This document shows, piece after piece, positions 8,554-16,345 of a stretch of DNA of 64,000 bases. The translations under genes and the position numbers were made by a program. The notes under the pieces were generated by a model. That model made no database searches. It was not told the DNA's origin and saw only the letters and a program-made list of their open reading frames with translations. Position 1 is the first letter of the stretch, and each line of letters starts with the position of its first letter. The stretch comes from an uncultured Ignavibacteria bacterium (lineage in GTDB: Bacteria > Bacteroidota > Ignavibacteria > SZUA-365): assembly GCA_913061095.1 (NCBI GenBank), contig CAJXVM010000006.1, positions 1-64,000 of the forward strand, given 5' to 3'.

Positions 8554-11550
8554 ATGGTACGACCCACCGCCCTGCTTCTTCTCCTGACGATGTTTCTGAC
8601 GGCGTCGGTTTCCGCCCAGGTCAAATCCCTTCAGGAGGAGCAGGATTACGCCTTCGCTCTCGGGCTGTTCAAAGATCAGAATTACCAGCTTGCGTTCGAG
8701 AAGTTCCAGCAGTTCACGAGCAGCTATCCCGAAAGCCAGCTGCAGCCGGACGCCCACTATTACATGGCGGAATCGCAGTATCAGAACGCCAATCTCCCCG
8801 ATGCGGCAATCGCGTTCCAAAGATTTCAAAAGGATTGGCCGGATAACAAGCTCGCCGACGACGCTGGCTTCCGCGAGGGAGAGGTGTATTTCCGTCAGAA
8901 GCAGTACCGCAAGGCGTATGAACAGTTCGCCAGTGTTGTGAAAACCTGGCCTCGCGGCAACCTGGCGCACGAAGCGGCGTACTGGGCAGGCGAAGCCGCG
9001 TTCAAGGACGGCAACCTCGCGCAGGCGATGCGCTACTACCGCATCTCGTATGAGCATTACCCCGAGGGACGCATCCGTGACTACGCCTATTTTTCCATCG
9101 GCTTTGTCCTCGAGAAGCAGCAAAAATTCGAAGACGCGCTTGCGAACTACGAGGATTTTCTCACACTCTATCCGGAGAGCCGCCTCGTCTCGAGTGTCTA
9201 CACCCGCAAGGGCGCGTGCATGTATCAACTCGGACAGTATGAAAATACGCTCACCTGGCTGGCGTCACTGACAGACAGTCCCGATCCGGAGAACGCTGCC
9301 GAGCGGCTGTTCCTCCGTGCCGAGGCGAATTACAAGCTGCGTCGCTTCGCCGAGGCGGAGGAACTCTACAAAAGCTTCCTGACCGGCTATCCCGACAACA
9401 AGCGCGTCGAGCAGGTGCAGTACTCCCTCGGGTGGACACAGATCGAGCAGGACAAGTATTCCGAGGCCATCGCGACCTTCGATGAACTGGCACAGCGCGA
9501 CGGCGATCTTGCCGAGGCCGCCCTGTTCCGCAAAGGCATGGCCCTGCGGCTCAACGGCAACCTCGAAGCCGCGCGCACGGTCTTCCGCGATATGATCACC
9601 GCGCGTTCCGACGGAGAGTATGCCGACAACGCGCATTTTGAACTCGGCATGGCCGCGTACAACGAGAAGGCGCTCGAGCGCGCGCTCACACATTTCTCTA
9701 CTGTCACATCATCGTTTTTGAAAAGCGACGTGCTGTCGGATGCCTGGTTCATGCAGGGCGAAACGCTGCTGAAGCTGAACCGTCCCGCCGACGCTGGCAG
9801 TGCGTTCGGATCGGCTGCCGCCGTGGAGGGTGCGGCGCAGAATGTCGTCGCAAAGTCCCTGTTCCGCCAGGGGTTCAGTCTCTTCCAGGCGGAACAGTAC
9901 GGTGATGCCGTGGTCGTCCTGAAGAATTTCATCCAGCGCTTCCCCGCCGACTCCCGCCGCGCCGAGGCGCTGATCTGGCTCGGGGAGAGTCATTTCAAGA
10001 ATGATGAATTCGAGGATGCGGTCATCGTTTACAATCAGGCGCTGGCTACCACGCAGGATGCCGCTATCATTCAGGACGCGCTCTACGGCCTGGGATGGTC
10101 TCACTTCCGCATGCAGCAGTTCGCTGAAGCGGAAAAGGCGTTTGCGCGTCTGACCACGGAACATCGCGCAGGCAAGCACGACGTCGACGCGAACATCCGC
10201 CTCGGGGATGCGCAGTACGCGCAGAAAAAATTTGCGGACGCCGCAAAGACCTACCGGTATACCTCGCGCATGTATCCAAGCAATCCCCTCTCCGCCTATG
10301 CCCTCCTGCAGCTCGCCTCCAGTGAGCACCGTCTCGGCAATACGCCCTCGGCGATATCCACGCTGCGCGGCATGCTTGCACGCTACCCGGATTCGGAGTA
10401 TGCGGACAAGGGACAGTTCAGTCTCGCCTGGATGTATTTCCAGAGCAAGGATTACGACGTGGCCATCAGAGAATTCGAAACGCTCATCCGGGAGCATCCA
10501 CGCAGTTCCCTGGCGCCCCAGGCCGCATACAGTATCGCCGATGCGTATTACAACCAGGGCAAGTATGCCGAGGCCGAAGAGGAATACCGGCGCGTCCTCG
10601 GCGACTATCCCGACTCCCCGAAGGTCAGTGACGCGCTCGACGGTCTCGCCCAGACCATGCGTTTGCAGGGACGCGAGGAGGAAGCGGCACGCGTCAAGGA
10701 GGAATGGCTCGCCTCGCATCCGCGTAGCGAAGCCGCGGATGAAGTGGTCTTCGCCAACCTGCGCGATCTGGCGGCACAGGACGACCCCGCACGGACGATT
10801 CCCGCGCTGCAGGGATTCATCAGCTCACATCCCGACAGTCCCCTGCTCCAGGAGGCCTATTTTCTGCTCGGCATTGCCTTCCGCGAGAACCGGGATCTCG
10901 AAGACGCCGACAAGACGCTGCGCGAAGCCGTGCGCCTGAATCCCTCGAGCGAACTCGGTGTTCGATCCCGGCTTGAACTCATCGAAACCGCCGTTGCGCA
11001 GCAGGATCGCAGCAAGGCGCTTGCAATCAGCGAAGACGTCCTGGCCGATCCTGCCGCACGGTCATACCGTTCACAGGTACATTACCGGCGCGGACTGATA
11101 TTCAAGGCGGACAAGCAGTTCGATTCGGCACGCAGGGAATTTCAGTCCGCGCGCACGGCGCAGCCGCAGGAACGCGCCGCGTCACTCGCCGCCATCGAGC
11201 TTGCCGTCCTCACTGCCGAAGAGGGCGACCTCGAGGCCGGTCTGCGGGATCTGCACACGATCGCCTCATCGCGGGTCGACGCCGTGGGAGCGGAAGCGCA
11301 GTACCGTATCGGAGAACTGCTCACGCGCGCCGAACGGTGGGAGGAAGCGAAAGAGGCTCTGCTCCGCGTCGGCTACGTGTTTGCCGACGCGTCGCTGTGG
11401 AACGCCCGTGCGCTCCTTCTGCTCGGCCGCAGCGCCGAGGCGCAGGGAAACAACACGGAAGCGCGAACCCACTACGAAAAAGTGCTGACCCAGTACGGAG
11501 GATCGGACGAAGCCCGGGAAGCGAAACGGCGAATGGAGATGCTGAAATGA
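8554..11550 (+). CDS. Large exported tetratricopeptide-repeat protein
   Basis: A 998-residue protein with a signal peptide (about 1-21, ending SVSAQ). The rest consists of tandem TPR-type helix pairs resembling the YbgF/CpoB and outer-membrane-lipoprotein (BamD-like) subclass, for example DAHYYMAESQYQNANLPDAA and later units of the form AEAEEEYRRVLGDYPDSPK. At least twenty such units are visible. There is no lipobox, so it is probably soluble in the periplasm. TPR arrays bind protein partners. The first place in a Ton-motor operon suggests a scaffold linking the barrel, TonB or the cell wall, as CpoB does for Tol. Its stop overlaps the next start (ATGA). Confidence 0.85.
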   Translation: MVRPTALLLLLTMFLTASVSAQVKSLQEEQDYAFALGLFKDQNYQLAFEKFQQFTSSYPESQLQPDAHYYMAESQYQNANLPDAAIAFQRFQKDWPDNKLADDAGFREGEVYFRQKQYRKAYEQFASVVKTWPRGNLAHEAAYWAGEAAFKDGNLAQAMRYYRISYEHYPEGRIRDYAYFSIGFVLEKQQKFEDALANYEDFLTLYPESRLVSSVYTRKGACMYQLGQYENTLTWLASLTDSPDPENAAERLFLRAEANYKLRRFAEAEELYKSFLTGYPDNKRVEQVQYSLGWTQIEQDKYSEAIATFDELAQRDGDLAEAALFRKGMALRLNGNLEAARTVFRDMITARSDGEYADNAHFELGMAAYNEKALERALTHFSTVTSSFLKSDVLSDAWFMQGETLLKLNRPADAGSAFGSAAAVEGAAQNVVAKSLFRQGFSLFQAEQYGDAVVVLKNFIQRFPADSRRAEALIWLGESHFKNDEFEDAVIVYNQALATTQDAAIIQDALYGLGWSHFRMQQFAEAEKAFARLTTEHRAGKHDVDANIRLGDAQYAQKKFADAAKTYRYTSRMYPSNPLSAYALLQLASSEHRLGNTPSAISTLRGMLARYPDSEYADKGQFSLAWMYFQSKDYDVAIREFETLIREHPRSSLAPQAAYSIADAYYNQGKYAEAEEEYRRVLGDYPDSPKVSDALDGLAQTMRLQGREEEAARVKEEWLASHPRSEAADEVVFANLRDLAAQDDPARTIPALQGFISSHPDSPLLQEAYFLLGIAFRENRDLEDADKTLREAVRLNPSSELGVRSRLELIETAVAQQDRSKALAISEDVLADPAARSYRSQVHYRRGLIFKADKQFDSARREFQSARTAQPQERAASLAAIELAVLTAEEGDLEAGLRDLHTIASSRVDAVGAEAQYRIGELLTRAERWEEAKEALLRVGYVFADASLWNARALLLLGRSAEAQGNNTEARTHYEKVLTQYGGSDEAREAKRRMEMLK

Positions 11551-13262
11551 GAATACTCGCCGTCATCTCCCTCCTGCTTACCCTGTCCGTCACCACCGTG
11601 GCACAGGACAAACCCCTGCCGCCGCCGCGTGATTTCAAACCCGAGACAAAGGAGGCCTCCGACGTTCTGCCTGCGCTGCTGCTGCCGGAATACGTGATCA
11701 CGGGCAGTGACCTGATCAGTTTCACCGAAGACAGGAAGGATGTTCTCGAGGGTCCCGACAGCCGCGCATTCACCGCGCGTGCGGGACGCGGAGCACGCGA
11801 GCAGCGCTTCATGGACACCGCGCCCACGCGCATGCCTCTGCGCAAGCCGGACCTCACCGGCAGCAAACATGTATTTCTCACGCGCCTCGGGTACGGCGGC
11901 TTCGCCACTCCGCATGTGCATATGCTCTACGGCGACCGCTACCGCCTCGGTGACGCTCACGCGTCCCTGCTCTACGAGCGCAGCGACGGTCATGTCGCAC
12001 GCGCAGATTACACGCGCCTGCAGTTCGCTGCGGGCGGCGGCACCTACCTTCCGCGCACGCTGACACCGATTCTTGCATCTTCCCGTCTGGAGGGCGGCAT
12101 TCGCGCCGACGTGCATGAATACGGTCTGTACGCGGACCGGCTGCCGCGCGAACGTCCCGCACCCGATTTCCGGCGCAACGCCATGAACATCGAAGCGCAG
12201 ACCGGGATTCTGTCGCGACGCAATACCGTATTCGACCACGAGCTCCATCTCCGCATCGGTCACACGGCCATCGATGAGGAATTCTCCCTCCTCGACACGA
12301 TGCAAGTCGATGAATACACTGCTGCGGAAACGCGCATCTCGCTTGACGGAAAAGCGGCGTTTGCATACGGCAGCTTCCCCGTACACACGTCCGTCTTCAT
12401 CCATGTCAACGACCTGACCGAGCGCAGCGAATCGTCCACGCGGCCGTTCCATCTCGGCGCCCGCGGAGGCACGCAGTACCGCCTCAGTGAGTCGACCATG
12501 CTCGGCGGCGGCCTGGCCTTCTGGCTGTACCGCGGCAGCGATCATGCCGCGCAATTTCGCGTCTACCCGCAGCTGCGTCTCCGCCACCTGCTCTCCGACG
12601 ACTGGTCGCTCGAAGTGGCATACGATCCGACCGTGGAAGAACACACGCTCGCCGGACTCCTCGAGCAGAATCCCTATCTCATGCTCGCCACGCGGATCCG
12701 GCAGACGGACATCCCGCTTCGTTTCGAAGCCGCCGCATCCTATGACAACCGGGCCACGACCGCGGCACGGATCGGCGTGCGGTGGAGTTCGTCCTCTTCC
12801 TGGCCGCGCTTTTCACTGCTCCCGGATCCCGTTCGGCAGCAATGGGAGGTGCTGTACAGTGGTACGACATCCATCACCGAACTGACGGCGGAATTCAGTC
12901 ATGCGTTCTCGCCGCGTACACATATGCAGGCCGACGCTGTCATCCGCATGAGCGACAACGACGCGGTCGACGGCAGCGTGCCCTATCTCCCGGATCACGA
13001 ATGGCGCGTCCTTCTCGGACACCGTTTCCCCTTTGACCTGCACGTGCAGTCATCGCTGCAGCTCATCGGCGAGCGGGAAATCACCGGCGGAGGAACGCTC
13101 AACGGGTGGCTGCTGCTCGGACTCGAACTCGAGTACCGCCTGCTGCCGAACGCCTCGCTGTTCCTTCGCTTTGACAATCTGCTCGACCAGAATTACCAGG
13201 AATGGGACGGCTACCGCGCGCGTCCCTTTTTCACCATGGGCGGAATCATCATTCGCTTGTGA
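11547..13262 (+). CDS. Outer-membrane beta-barrel with TonB-box-like N-terminus, no plug recognised
   Basis: 571 residues starting at the ATG that overlaps the TPR stop; a longer reading frame reaching back to 11337 would lie inside the TPR gene and is not used. The signal peptide covers about 1-20 (VTTVAQ). After a proline-rich stretch comes LPEYVITGSDLISF (about 48-61), resembling a TonB box (E-V-V-V-T-G-S). The remainder shows the alternating aromatic/polar pattern of a beta barrel. The C-terminal part reads FLRFDNLLDQNYQEWDGY, as in the last strands of TonB-dependent receptors, and it ends in a hydrophobic strand. At this length there is no obvious space for the 130-residue plug seen in full receptors. 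It is probably an outer-membrane channel or ligand of the TonB encoded four genes later. Confidence 0.75.
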   Translation: MRILAVISLLLTLSVTTVAQDKPLPPPRDFKPETKEASDVLPALLLPEYVITGSDLISFTEDRKDVLEGPDSRAFTARAGRGAREQRFMDTAPTRMPLRKPDLTGSKHVFLTRLGYGGFATPHVHMLYGDRYRLGDAHASLLYERSDGHVARADYTRLQFAAGGGTYLPRTLTPILASSRLEGGIRADVHEYGLYADRLPRERPAPDFRRNAMNIEAQTGILSRRNTVFDHELHLRIGHTAIDEEFSLLDTMQVDEYTAAETRISLDGKAAFAYGSFPVHTSVFIHVNDLTERSESSTRPFHLGARGGTQYRLSESTMLGGGLAFWLYRGSDHAAQFRVYPQLRLRHLLSDDWSLEVAYDPTVEEHTLAGLLEQNPYLMLATRIRQTDIPLRFEAAASYDNRATTAARIGVRWSSSSSWPRFSLLPDPVRQQWEVLYSGTTSITELTAEFSHAFSPRTHMQADAVIRMSDNDAVDGSVPYLPDHEWRVLLGHRFPFDLHVQSSLQLIGEREITGGGTLNGWLLLGLELEYRLLPNASLFLRFDNLLDQNYQEWDGYRARPFFTMGGIIIRL

Positions 13263-13263
13263 T

Positions 13264-13491
13264 ATGGCCGCATTGAAAGACATCCTGTACCGCACGGCAG
13301 CCAATATCGGCGTGGACGCCGATGCCCTGCAGTCCTATGCCGACGCGCTCTCGTCAATCGTCGAGGAGGCGCACCGCCGCGGCGAGGATGTCGAACTGAT
13401 GACCTTCGGCACCCTGCGTCCGGAAGGAAGCGAGCCGCGTTTCACTCCCCACGCATCCCTGCTGCCGCCGCGGGACGGAGACGAAGCATGA
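13264..13491 (+). CDS. Small HU-like protein
   Basis: 75 residues from the ATG at 13264, one base after the barrel gene stop. The sequence follows the HU/IHF fold pattern. An N-terminal helix pair (LKDILYRTAANIGVDADALQ, then SYADALSSIVEEAHRRGE) leads to the turn DVELMTFGTLRPEG, matching the HU motif of a basic or acidic turn followed by an F-G-T-F strand. The long DNA-binding beta arm is short or missing, and the end is Pro/Arg-rich. It resembles the HU-CCDC81-type modules of Bacteroidota rather than nucleoid HU. It overlaps the next HU-like gene by 4 bp. DNA binding is not assured. Confidence 0.6.
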   Translation: MAALKDILYRTAANIGVDADALQSYADALSSIVEEAHRRGEDVELMTFGTLRPEGSEPRFTPHASLLPPRDGDEA

Positions 13492-14402
13492 CCAGGCGCG
13501 AACTGATTGAGCGGATGGCCGACCGCCTGCAGGTGCCCGAGCACAGCGCCCAAGTGTTTCTGCACGCCTTTTTCGATGTCAGCAAGTCCATGCTGCGCTC
13601 CGGAGAGACTGTAGCGCTCGGCGCGCTCGGAACCTGGACGCCGGAGCACGATCCCGACGGCGTCTTTCGCAGCGTCATCTACGCGCCTTCCCATGCCGCT
13701 TCCCCGGTCCCCGTTGGCGAGGATATCGTTTCGGGACCGGCCAGCAGTATCGACAGCAGGCATTTCATTCCGGCAGAAGCGCTCGCCATCGCACATCCCT
13801 CGGGACGCTCCCCCGTGGATGTCGCGGATATCGTTATCGAGGTGCAGCGTGGATTTGCGGAGGAAGCGCCCATGGAGGAAACTCCTGTGGAGGAAGCTCC
13901 CGCTGATGCGGCTCCCGAAGAAGAATCTGTCGAGGATGAATATCCCGGGGAAGAGGAATATATTGAAGAGGCCGTTCCGGGGGATACAGATGCGGGGGAT
14001 ATGCTCACCGATGAAGGTGATTTCCTTGAGGAGGATTTCGACGAGGTCGAAGCCGAAGGCATGGAGGCCGAAAGCATGGAGGGCCACGGCATCGAGGACG
14101 ACGAGGTCGAGGATGACGCGGTATTTCATCGCAATCGCGATCAGTTGTATCATCCTCCCGAGGAGCGGAGCAACCGTGCACTGCTGTTCGTGGCTCTCGG
14201 ACTGACGCTGGTCGTGCTTATAATTATCCTCTCCCTTCTCTTCGGCAGTGACGAGAAAGCGTCGTTCGGCGACCGGCGGCATGATCCGAATTCCGCAACG
14301 ATCCCATCTGCCGGCACATGGAACGAAACCGCCGAACCCGAATCCTCGAGATATGAACTGACAGCGAACACAGTGAAACTCACAATACAGCGGAGCATTT
14401 GA
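13488..14402 (+). CDS. Membrane-anchored HU-like protein with acidic linker
   Basis: 304 residues. Residues 1-70 follow the HU/CCDC81 pattern: helices TRRELIERMADRLQ and HSAQVFLHAFFDVSKSML, then GETVALGALGTWTPE. Residues about 125-211 are extremely acidic (Glu/Asp/Pro/Ala). A single membrane helix at 231-253 (ALLFVALGLTLVVLIIILSL) is followed by about 50 polar residues. The expected topology is an HU-like domain in the cytoplasm and a short periplasmic tail. Related HU-CCDC81 modules in Bacteroidota are often joined to a membrane helix and a SPOR domain; no SPOR domain is seen here. It lies between the small HU-like gene (4-bp overlap) and exbB (1-bp overlap), so it is probably made together with the Ton motor. 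Whether it binds DNA, peptidoglycan machinery or the motor cannot be said. Confidence 0.65.
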   Translation: MTRRELIERMADRLQVPEHSAQVFLHAFFDVSKSMLRSGETVALGALGTWTPEHDPDGVFRSVIYAPSHAASPVPVGEDIVSGPASSIDSRHFIPAEALAIAHPSGRSPVDVADIVIEVQRGFAEEAPMEETPVEEAPADAAPEEESVEDEYPGEEEYIEEAVPGDTDAGDMLTDEGDFLEEDFDEVEAEGMEAESMEGHGIEDDEVEDDAVFHRNRDQLYHPPEERSNRALLFVALGLTLVVLIIILSLLFGSDEKASFGDRRHDPNSATIPSAGTWNETAEPESSRYELTANTVKLTIQRSI

Positions 14403-15091
14403 TGACAGTATTCGATCTTTTCCTCAAGGGCGGCCCGGTGATGTGGTTCATCCTCGCCGCCTCCCTGCTCGCCACGGCCATCATCATCCAGAAGCTGGTC
14501 ACGCTCTCGCGGGTGAAGACCGACGGCGGAAAGTTCATCCTCCAGATCCGTTCCGTTCTCAGCAAGGGCGACATGTCAGCCGCACTTACCATGTGCTCCG
14601 AGGCCGCCACGCCGCTTTCGACAATCCTTCGCGCTGGCCTGCTGAAGATGAAGGGCACCCATCAGGACGTCAAGGATGCCGTCGAGAGCGCGGCCCGCAT
14701 GGAAGTCTACAAACTCGAGCGTGGACTGGGCCTGCTCGGATCCATCGCCGGCATCGCTCCGCTGCTCGGTTTTCTGGGCACGGTGACGGGTATGATCGGA
14801 GCGTTTCGCGTGATCGAGGTCAACGAGGGTGTCGTCAATCCGCAATTGCTCGCCTCCGGTATCTGGGAGGCACTGCTGACCACCGCGTTCGGACTGATCA
14901 TCGGCATCCCCGCCTATTTCTTTTACAATTACCTCGTCAATCGGGTTGCGCATTTTGTGTTCGAGACCGAAAGCAGCTGCAACGATTTTCTTGATATCGC
15001 GCAATCCGAGCAGCGCAAGGCGCAGGTCGCCGCAAAAAAAGCGCAGCTTGCGCGCAAACAGTCGGCACCGCAGAGAGGATCGCAGTCATGA
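14402..15091 (+). CDS. exbB: ExbB/TolQ/MotA-family proton channel protein
   Basis: 229 residues from the ATG at 14402, which shares one base with the previous stop. Three membrane helices are seen: about 8-27 (GPVMWFILAASLLATAIII), about 112-135 (LGSIAGIAPLLGFLGTVTGM) and about 155-180. The conserved ExbB/TolQ signature APLLGFLGTVTGMI, with its channel-lining threonine, is intact. Together with ExbD it forms the inner-membrane motor that turns proton flow into TonB movement. The cytoplasmic tail is Lys/Gln-rich. It overlaps exbD by 4 bp. Confidence 0.95.
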   Translation: MTVFDLFLKGGPVMWFILAASLLATAIIIQKLVTLSRVKTDGGKFILQIRSVLSKGDMSAALTMCSEAATPLSTILRAGLLKMKGTHQDVKDAVESAARMEVYKLERGLGLLGSIAGIAPLLGFLGTVTGMIGAFRVIEVNEGVVNPQLLASGIWEALLTTAFGLIIGIPAYFFYNYLVNRVAHFVFETESSCNDFLDIAQSEQRKAQVAAKKAQLARKQSAPQRGSQS

Positions 15092-15516
15092 AAATCCAGC
15101 TCAGCCAGGACAACAAGCCGCTGACTATCTTCAGCTATTCGTCGCTGACGGATATCGTGCTGCTGCTGCTGGTGTTTTTCCTTCTTACCTCCTCCTTCAT
15201 CATCACCGAGGGAATACAGGTGACGCTCCCGGAAGCGAAAAACACAACGGCATCGGAACAGGAGCAGATCATCGTCGCGCTGCTGAATGACGGACGCATG
15301 TTCCTGAACAACGAAGAAATCAGTCCGGCCAATTTCCGGACGGCGCTCGAAGAACGTCTCACAGAGCCGGAGAAACAGGTCGTGATTCTTTCGAGCGACC
15401 GCGATGTTCCCCTCGAACGCGCCGTGTTCGTCATGGACGAGGCCAAGGGGATCGGCGCCTCACGATTTTTCATTTCCACCAGAATGCCCGAAGACGATGA
15501 CAATCTACAACGTTGA
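15088..15516 (+). CDS. exbD: ExbD/TolR-family biopolymer transport protein
   Basis: 142 residues with one N-terminal membrane helix (about 23-43, SLTDIVLLLLVFFLLTSSF). The helix contains the essential aspartate in LTDIVLLLLVFF, the proton-binding residue of ExbD/TolR. A periplasmic domain follows, ending with the DRDVPLERAVFVMDEAK segment that binds peptidoglycan or TonB in relatives. It overlaps exbB by 4 bp and tonB by 20 bp, consistent with fixed stoichiometry of the complex. Confidence 0.95.
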   Translation: MKIQLSQDNKPLTIFSYSSLTDIVLLLLVFFLLTSSFIITEGIQVTLPEAKNTTASEQEQIIVALLNDGRMFLNNEEISPANFRTALEERLTEPEKQVVILSSDRDVPLERAVFVMDEAKGIGASRFFISTRMPEDDDNLQR

Positions 15517-16345
15517 CATCAAGAGCTGGGGCATTTCCGTCACCCTGCATGCCCTGCTGATGCTCATCATGATTTTCTGGGCCGCGTTTCCCGATATCAG
15601 GAAATATCCGGAGGAAATCGAACTGGTGTTTCTTGAACCCGCTGCGCCGGCCGAGGCACCCAGGCTCGACGCGCGTCCACGCGTACTTCCGCAGCCGACC
15701 GAGCAGCGTACCGCATCACCCGCCACGCGCGCGGTGACGAGCACGCAGCAATCTGCCGCGCGCCAGGCGCCGGCCGAACAGACCACCGCCCGGAATCGCG
15801 GCACGCAGCAGTCCGCTCCGTCCACACCGGTCCCCCCGCGCGAGCTGCGCGGAACCACGGACGCGGTGGAATTCATGGATTACGGCGGCGGCAAGCAGGA
15901 GCGCAGCAGCGCTCCATCCACCGGTGAATACTCCCGCCGCGAATCACGCGAGCAGGGACTGAGCACCTCTGAGCGGTCTGCCGACAACGTGACGGGAGCC
16001 GGAAGCGGTGAACAGCGTGCGATCACATCCGATCCCGGCACCCTGAGCGCGACGCCGCACTCCTCGGCCGACATCCAGTGGGACGGCGGGCTGTCGCGCA
16101 ACCGCATCAGCGGCGTCCTCCCTGCATTCCCGCCCGGCGCAACACGTGAAGTGCAGGTGGCGGTGCGCTTTCGCGTGCGTCCTGACGGGAGCATGTACGG
16201 CATGACGGTGATTCAGAAGGGTGATCCGCGCTACGAACGCGCCGCACTGGCGGCAATGCGCACATGGCGCTTCAACGCCCTCCCCCCGGCAGCGAAGCAG
16301 GCGGATCAGGTCGGCACGGCCGTCTTCAGCTTCAAGCTGAAATGA
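15497..16345 (+). CDS. tonB: TonB-family energy transducer
   Basis: 282 residues from the ATG at 15497, inside the exbD end. The short cytoplasmic start is followed by a membrane helix at about 13-31 (VTLHALLMLIMIFWAAF). A long periplasmic linker (about 45-215) is rich in Pro, Ala, Ser, Thr, Arg and Gln. The C-terminal domain (about 215-282) has the TonB fold signature: VAVRFRVRPDGSMYGMTVIQ, then ERAALAAMRTWRFNALPP. It carries force from ExbB/ExbD to outer-membrane barrels, most likely including the one at 11547. It is the last gene of the seven-gene operon. A TolA role is the alternative, but the C-terminal motif favours TonB. Confidence 0.88.
   Translation: MTIYNVDIKSWGISVTLHALLMLIMIFWAAFPDIRKYPEEIELVFLEPAAPAEAPRLDARPRVLPQPTEQRTASPATRAVTSTQQSAARQAPAEQTTARNRGTQQSAPSTPVPPRELRGTTDAVEFMDYGGGKQERSSAPSTGEYSRRESREQGLSTSERSADNVTGAGSGEQRAITSDPGTLSATPHSSADIQWDGGLSRNRISGVLPAFPPGATREVQVAVRFRVRPDGSMYGMTVIQKGDPRYERAALAAMRTWRFNALPPAAKQADQVGTAVFSFKLK

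Follow-up and report, generated by a model that had tools for sequence, protein, structure and literature searches.

HU is a classic DNA-bending protein, and its half-bodies form pairs. What, then, are two HU-like proteins, one of them anchored in the membrane, doing inside an operon for a Ton-type motor? The question is raised by a locus of an uncultured Ignavibacteria bacterium of the SZUA-365 lineage, found in a stretch of 64,000 nt (contig CAJXVM010000006.1, positions 1 to 64,000) that we refer to as the window. The initial annotation of this DNA had suggested that the anchored copy might tether the chromosome or bind the motor as a non-DNA HU. With moderate confidence, we lean towards the view that HU1 and HU2 together make up one subunit of a Ton/Tol-type motor, HU-CCDC81-like but split and without SPOR, whose HU dimer would serve as a cytoplasmic protein-protein module. 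In the open literature, to which our search was confined, no paper describing the locus was found.

Two HU half-bodies within a Ton-type operon

The genes and protein segments discussed below are given in Table 1. Adjacent genes of the operon overlap by 1 to 20 nt, the single exception being a 1-nt gap ahead of HU1, which starts 1 nt past the barrel stop codon. The barrel gene overlaps the TPR gene by ATGA, HU2 overlaps HU1 in the same way, and the overlap of HU2 with exbB is 1 nt. The reading frames described initially, a 75-residue HU followed by an HU with an acidic linker of about 85 residues and a membrane helix, are real.

Table 1. Operon genes of the window and segments of HU2
Feature	Position	Strand	Evidence
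TPR-repeat periplasmic protein, 998 aa, signal peptide; locus gene 1	8554..11550	+	NCBIfam YbgF/BamD-type TPR
Outer-membrane beta-barrel protein (OMR), signal peptide	11547..13262	+	weak TonB-dependent receptor barrel matches
HU1, soluble 75-aa arm-less HU half-body, net -7	13264..13491	+	PF00216, alignment, AlphaFold, Foldseek
HU2, 304 aa: HU domain-acidic linker-juxtamembrane motif-membrane helix-short tail	13488..14402	+	
HU2: HU domain, residues 1-66, beta2-beta3 turn shortened, no arm	13488..13685	+	PF00216 E 4.8e-7; AlphaFold
HU2: conserved segment 'GPASSIDSRHFIPAEAL' (GPASSIDxRHFIPAEAL)	13734..13784	+	alignments; kept in HU-less G010, G011
HU2: conserved short helix '(V/I)DVADIVxEVxRxF'	13818..13859	+	alignment, AlphaFold
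HU2: acidic disordered linker, residues 126-212 (~85 aa), net -40	13863..14123	+	charge; pLDDT mostly under 50
HU2: juxtamembrane motif 'FxRNRDQLYHPP'	14124..14159	+	alignment: best-conserved part of HU2 in family
HU2: single membrane helix, residues about 230-255	14175..14252	+	sequence and AlphaFold
HU2: short C-terminal tail, inferred periplasmic; no SPOR	14253..14399	+	position where relatives have SPOR
ExbB/TolQ-type motor protein	14402..15091	+	PF01618 E 6.3e-31; TolQ best NCBIfam model, below cut-off
ExbD/TolR-type motor protein	15088..15516	+	PF02472 E 4.6e-26
TonB/TolA-type transducer	15497..16345	+	TonB_C E 1e-6; TIGR01352 above cut-off

The three profiles expected of a Ton system, ExbB, ExbD and TonB, all score above cut-off in the window, and the TolQ and TolR equivalog cut-offs are missed (100.8 vs 221 bits and 54.9 vs 127.3 bits, respectively). 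Choosing between TolQ and ExbB on profile scores proved uninformative, since this genome has another, standard ExbBDD system whose ExbB likewise prefers TolQ. This second motor cluster, an ExbB-ExbD-ExbD arrangement of the usual Bacteroidota type, lies downstream of secA on contig C10 of the genome (L173 6486-8189); given its presence, the motor of the window looks dedicated. Its client may well be the neighboring barrel: a TonB-box-like sequence, LPEYVITGSD, follows the signal peptide of the window barrel, a motif of the form LP[DE][FY]VITG is found at this place in most of the class loci that we read, motifs of the type LP[DE][FY][VI]ITG recur across the class, and the barrel is thus probably pulled by the TonB of its own operon. 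Profile searches found no plug domain in the window barrel. A plug-less or mini-plug TonB client would be unusual.

Several comparisons support the HU folds proposed at the outset for both proteins. Against the Pfam family Bac_DNA_binding (PF00216; curated cut-off 22.4 bits), HU2 passes with 30.4 bits; HU1 stays below the cut-off (18.1 bits, E 0.0031), and its orthologues in G001 and G006 exceed it with 23.8 and 23.0 bits. AlphaFold predicts the two helices and three strands of an HU half-body both in HU1 (mean pLDDT 85.9) and in residues 1-66 of HU2 (block pLDDT about 76-89); the full-length HU2 model has a mean pLDDT of 54.5 and is poor everywhere but in the HU domain and the membrane helix. 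For both proteins, the top PDB matches in Foldseek are all HU/IHF structures, the best for HU1 being Thermotoga HU (Z 8.8). Profile-profile comparison gives probabilities of 94 (HU1) and 97 (HU2) against HU, and of 90 and 93.5 against the second HU domain of HU-CCDC81. The Pfam models of HU-CCDC81 themselves (PF18174/PF18175) match neither window protein at E<=10, nor is any Pfam SPOR match found in HU2 at this threshold, in agreement with the SPOR-less protein described initially. Three ordinary HU genes are present elsewhere in the genome.

Loss of the DNA-binding arms

What HU1 and HU2 share with HU/IHF nucleoid proteins is the alpha-alpha-beta half-body; they differ in lacking the beta-arm and the C-terminal basic helix, in being acidic, and in that one partner is anchored in the membrane. 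Canonical HU was represented here by five sequences, used for comparison only. In our alignments, the beta-arm is replaced by a short turn in both HU modules of all HU-bearing members of the family, and the AlphaFold models of HU1 and HU2 have a short hairpin where the DNA arm would be. The C-terminal basic helix is missing from the HU modules of the family, and the DNA-binding features of PF00216 (beta-arms, proline tip, basic saddle) are not seen in its HU domains. Across the eight genomes with two separate genes, HU1 has a net charge of -5 to -9 and a pI of 4.2-4.8; the HU domain of HU2 ranges from -1 to -5 in the family and stands at -2 in the window. An HU dimer with an acidic surface and no arms to grip DNA most likely works as a protein-protein module; its DNA binding would have been lost.

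A chromosome tether, in which the HU pair binds DNA and joins the nucleoid to the membrane motor, draws its support from outside the family. G102, which belongs to family f18 of the same class, combines this two-gene layout with complete arms and with HU modules that are strongly basic (net +11/+12) and fused to TM-SPOR, and a DNA-binding ancestor is therefore plausible. The G102 pair (L136 7852-9446, - strand), an HU1 and an HU2-TM-SPOR with complete basic arms, is likely, judging from its sequence, to be a DNA-binding, membrane-anchored and wall-binding HU; no ExbBD or TonB was found beside it. A chromosome-partition role has reportedly been proposed for HU-CCDC81-SPOR proteins. In G015, an order-mate of the window, the HU modules are arm-less yet still K/R-rich; the succession from G102 through G015 to the window family may indicate that DNA binding was lost step by step. 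The window family itself argues against a tether: it has no arms, the charges in the window are -7 for HU1, -2 for HU2 and -40 for the linker, and two members have lost their HU domains altogether. We therefore regard the tether entertained in the initial annotation as unlikely. Two observations count against our preferred protein-protein module: R3/R4 are retained in the HU domain of HU2, and its acidity is only mild, so that this domain may still make weak contact with DNA.

Conservation and turnover of the HU pair in the family

The slot between barrel and motor is filled, with the same gene order, in 12/12 sampled genomes of the family, which represent five genera. HU1 and HU2 are separate genes in eight of the 12, HU1 measuring 74-77 aa and overlapping HU2. 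Two further genomes (G005, G007) have both HU domains fused into one membrane protein as a tandem, which argues that HU1 and HU2 function as one unit. In G010 and G011, both HU domains are lost; the SSID segment, the short helix, the linker, the juxtamembrane motif and the membrane helix are retained. From these losses, the membrane part emerges as the core, and the two HU domains as an accessory that appears and disappears as a pair. The dispensability of the HU domains in these two genomes also counts against the explanation that we prefer.

In the window, D/E account for 46% of linker residues 126-212. The juxtamembrane motif FxRNRDQLYHPP is present in the orthologues at loci L024-L035, including those of family members without HU domains, and a related motif, 'YRKKREQFYSPP', occurs in the order-mate G015. 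Relatives with the same HU2 appear in public records under the names Bacteroidetes bacterium SZUA-365 and Ignavibacteria bacterium BM516.

Conservation and dN below dS rule out that the ORFs arose by chance or from a wrongly called frame, and synteny in 12/12 family genomes rules out the accidental location of a nucleoid HU. A different concern is that the HU pair may be an eroding relic, left with little function after SPOR was lost. SPOR has indeed disappeared in the order, the arms have been lost, G010 and G011 have dispensed with HU, and HU codons evolve faster than those of ExbB, purifying selection being weaker on both HU modules than on ExbB. Selection is nonetheless evident, dN amounting to about 0.10-0.14 of dS on HU codons (closest pair, G006/G009, with dS near saturation), that is, well below it; in addition, all eight two-gene members have intact reading frames, an HU1 of 74-77 aa and an invariant core around 'VELMTFGTL'. 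We consider a mere vestige improbable. We give hardly any credence to HU1 as a soluble regulator, for example of transcription of its own operon, sequestered by membrane-bound HU2: HU1 is separate and soluble in most of the family, but it is acidic and arm-less, and in G005 and G007 it is part of the membrane protein.

The slot across the class and the phylum, and a candidate Tol-like system

We searched 149 class genomes for the barrel gene and read 31 loci outside the family, which reveals a widespread locus of the form TPR - barrel - X - [ExbB - ExbD] - TonB, which is also present in other Bacteroidota. The gene for the TPR protein, with its many YbgF/BamD-type repeats, stands at the head of the locus throughout the class, as it does in further Bacteroidota families. 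X crosses the membrane once and normally terminates in a SPOR domain, presumably on the periplasmic side. We found examples of C-terminal SPOR from 14 other families of the class, 11 of them by Pfam with E-values of 1e-5 to 1e-18 (f4, f5, f6, f8, f11, f14, f17, f18, f19, f21, f22) and three by a local profile only (f9, f10, f16). The N-terminus of X varies: it has no recognizable HU in f4, f6 and f19, for example, one HU in f11 and f22, and an HU2 domain accompanied by a separate HU1 gene in f14 and f18. These TM-SPOR and HU-TM-SPOR proteins occupy the same slot as HU2 of the window, from barrel to ExbB/TonB, and have a single membrane helix like it; the proteins of the window's order differ in being without SPOR.

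The loci without SPOR belong to the window's order (f1 and f3); they cluster on a tree of TPR, barrel and ExbB, consistent with a single loss of SPOR; in the loci labelled 'noX' on this tree, X may have been missed by our ORF and profile rules. HU is distributed patchily in the class: an HU-bearing ancestor may have lost it several times, or it may have been gained several times, possibly by separate recruitments to the slot, which would count against the explanation that we prefer; a tandem HU in the outgroup slot favors loss over gain. Several families lack ExbB and ExbD at the locus but retain the barrel, X and often TonB. X would thus be linked to the whole assembly and not to ExbB alone. 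For this reason, too, the most constant neighbor of the HU pair is the upstream barrel gene, and the placement directly before exbB pointed out initially, true of the window, captures only part of the synteny. Likewise, the proposal of a non-DNA HU that binds the motor comes closer than the tether, its contact with ExbB being putative and ExbBD being absent in several relatives.

The key paper on HU-CCDC81 proteins is that of Burroughs et al. (2017, Cell Cycle). Searching 148 Bacteroidota genomes with the Pfam model HU-CCDC81_bac_1, we obtained 31 carriers and examined 30 loci. In 10 of these, which represent five families (f33, f36, f42, f44, f49) beyond the class, the HU-CCDC81 gene comes immediately after a barrel gene homologous to that of the window; ExbB is the next gene in f33, f44 and f49, and follows within the 3-kb locus in seven of the 10. 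PF18174 scores above cut-off in the examples from f33, f36 and f49. Both HU-CCDC81 models do so in G451 and in G445, the latter also having SPOR above cut-off. Bacterial HU-CCDC81 proteins (PF18174 and PF18175, often arranged as HU-HU-TM-SPOR) share with the window two HU modules ahead of a membrane helix, encoded by two genes in the window and fused in G005 and G007. The window pair differs in its two genes, the strongly acidic HU1, the lack of a match to the two Pfam models, a juxtamembrane motif of its own and the lack of SPOR, which is missing from the whole family. The window pair is the positional counterpart of the HU-CCDC81/SPOR proteins, without reaching the Pfam models, and the relationship to this lineage suggested initially is borne out by HU-CCDC81 after the same barrel and by SPOR in this slot in most class families. 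The functional link to the operon likewise gains support from a position conserved in the family, in the class and outside it. Both an absence of the HU fold and an absence of the genes from the operon in relatives were looked for, and neither was found.

In several outside families, the HU-CCDC81-SPOR gene is located away from the motor; in f41, it adjoins dprA and a gene for a 4HBT thioesterase of the YbgC-type superfamily (L163 5485-6093, L164 7608-8147). In E. coli, the tol-pal operon begins with ybgC. Such separate loci would fit a cell-division factor only, an HU-TM protein that does its work at the septum without the motor, the two happening to share a transcript. The slot beside the barrel is, however, conserved in many families inside and outside the class, and we find this alternative very unlikely.

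Returning to the motor subunit that we favor, HU1 would pair with the HU domain of HU2 to form one HU-type heterodimer, suspended by the acidic linker from the membrane anchor on what is predicted to be the cytoplasmic side. This dimer may dock a cytoplasmic partner onto the assembly of motor and barrel; the partner could be a component of the division machinery or of the cell pole, or else the motor. Its role may lie in constricting the envelope or in maintaining the outer membrane. Since SPOR domains bind denuded glycan of the septum, the assembly would, in most relatives, be directed to the site of division. The locus has ExbB/TolQ, ExbD/TolR, TonB/TolA and a YbgF/CpoB-type TPR protein in common with Tol-Pal and Ton operons, and differs from both by its HU/SPOR-type membrane subunit. 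In place of TolB and Pal, neither of which we recognized in or next to the locus, it encodes an outer-membrane barrel that has a TonB-box-like motif. A 2025 survey was unable to find tol-pal loci in Bacteroidetes (PMC12204202), and we propose the locus as a candidate for their equivalent in Bacteroidota. More tentatively, it may be a Tol-like division-site motor, coupled to the barrel and aimed at the septum by its HU/SPOR subunit, in which a non-DNA HU dimer would have taken over the positioning in the lineage of the window after SPOR was lost; this extended reading we hold to be possible but doubtful.

A single operon slot thus holds a natural series that starts with a basic HU with arms, passes through an acidic HU that has none and ends with the complete absence of HU, which makes it testable how a DNA-binding fold turns into a protein adaptor. 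The widespread operon around this slot is the more interesting part, as a candidate Tol-like system in Bacteroidota.
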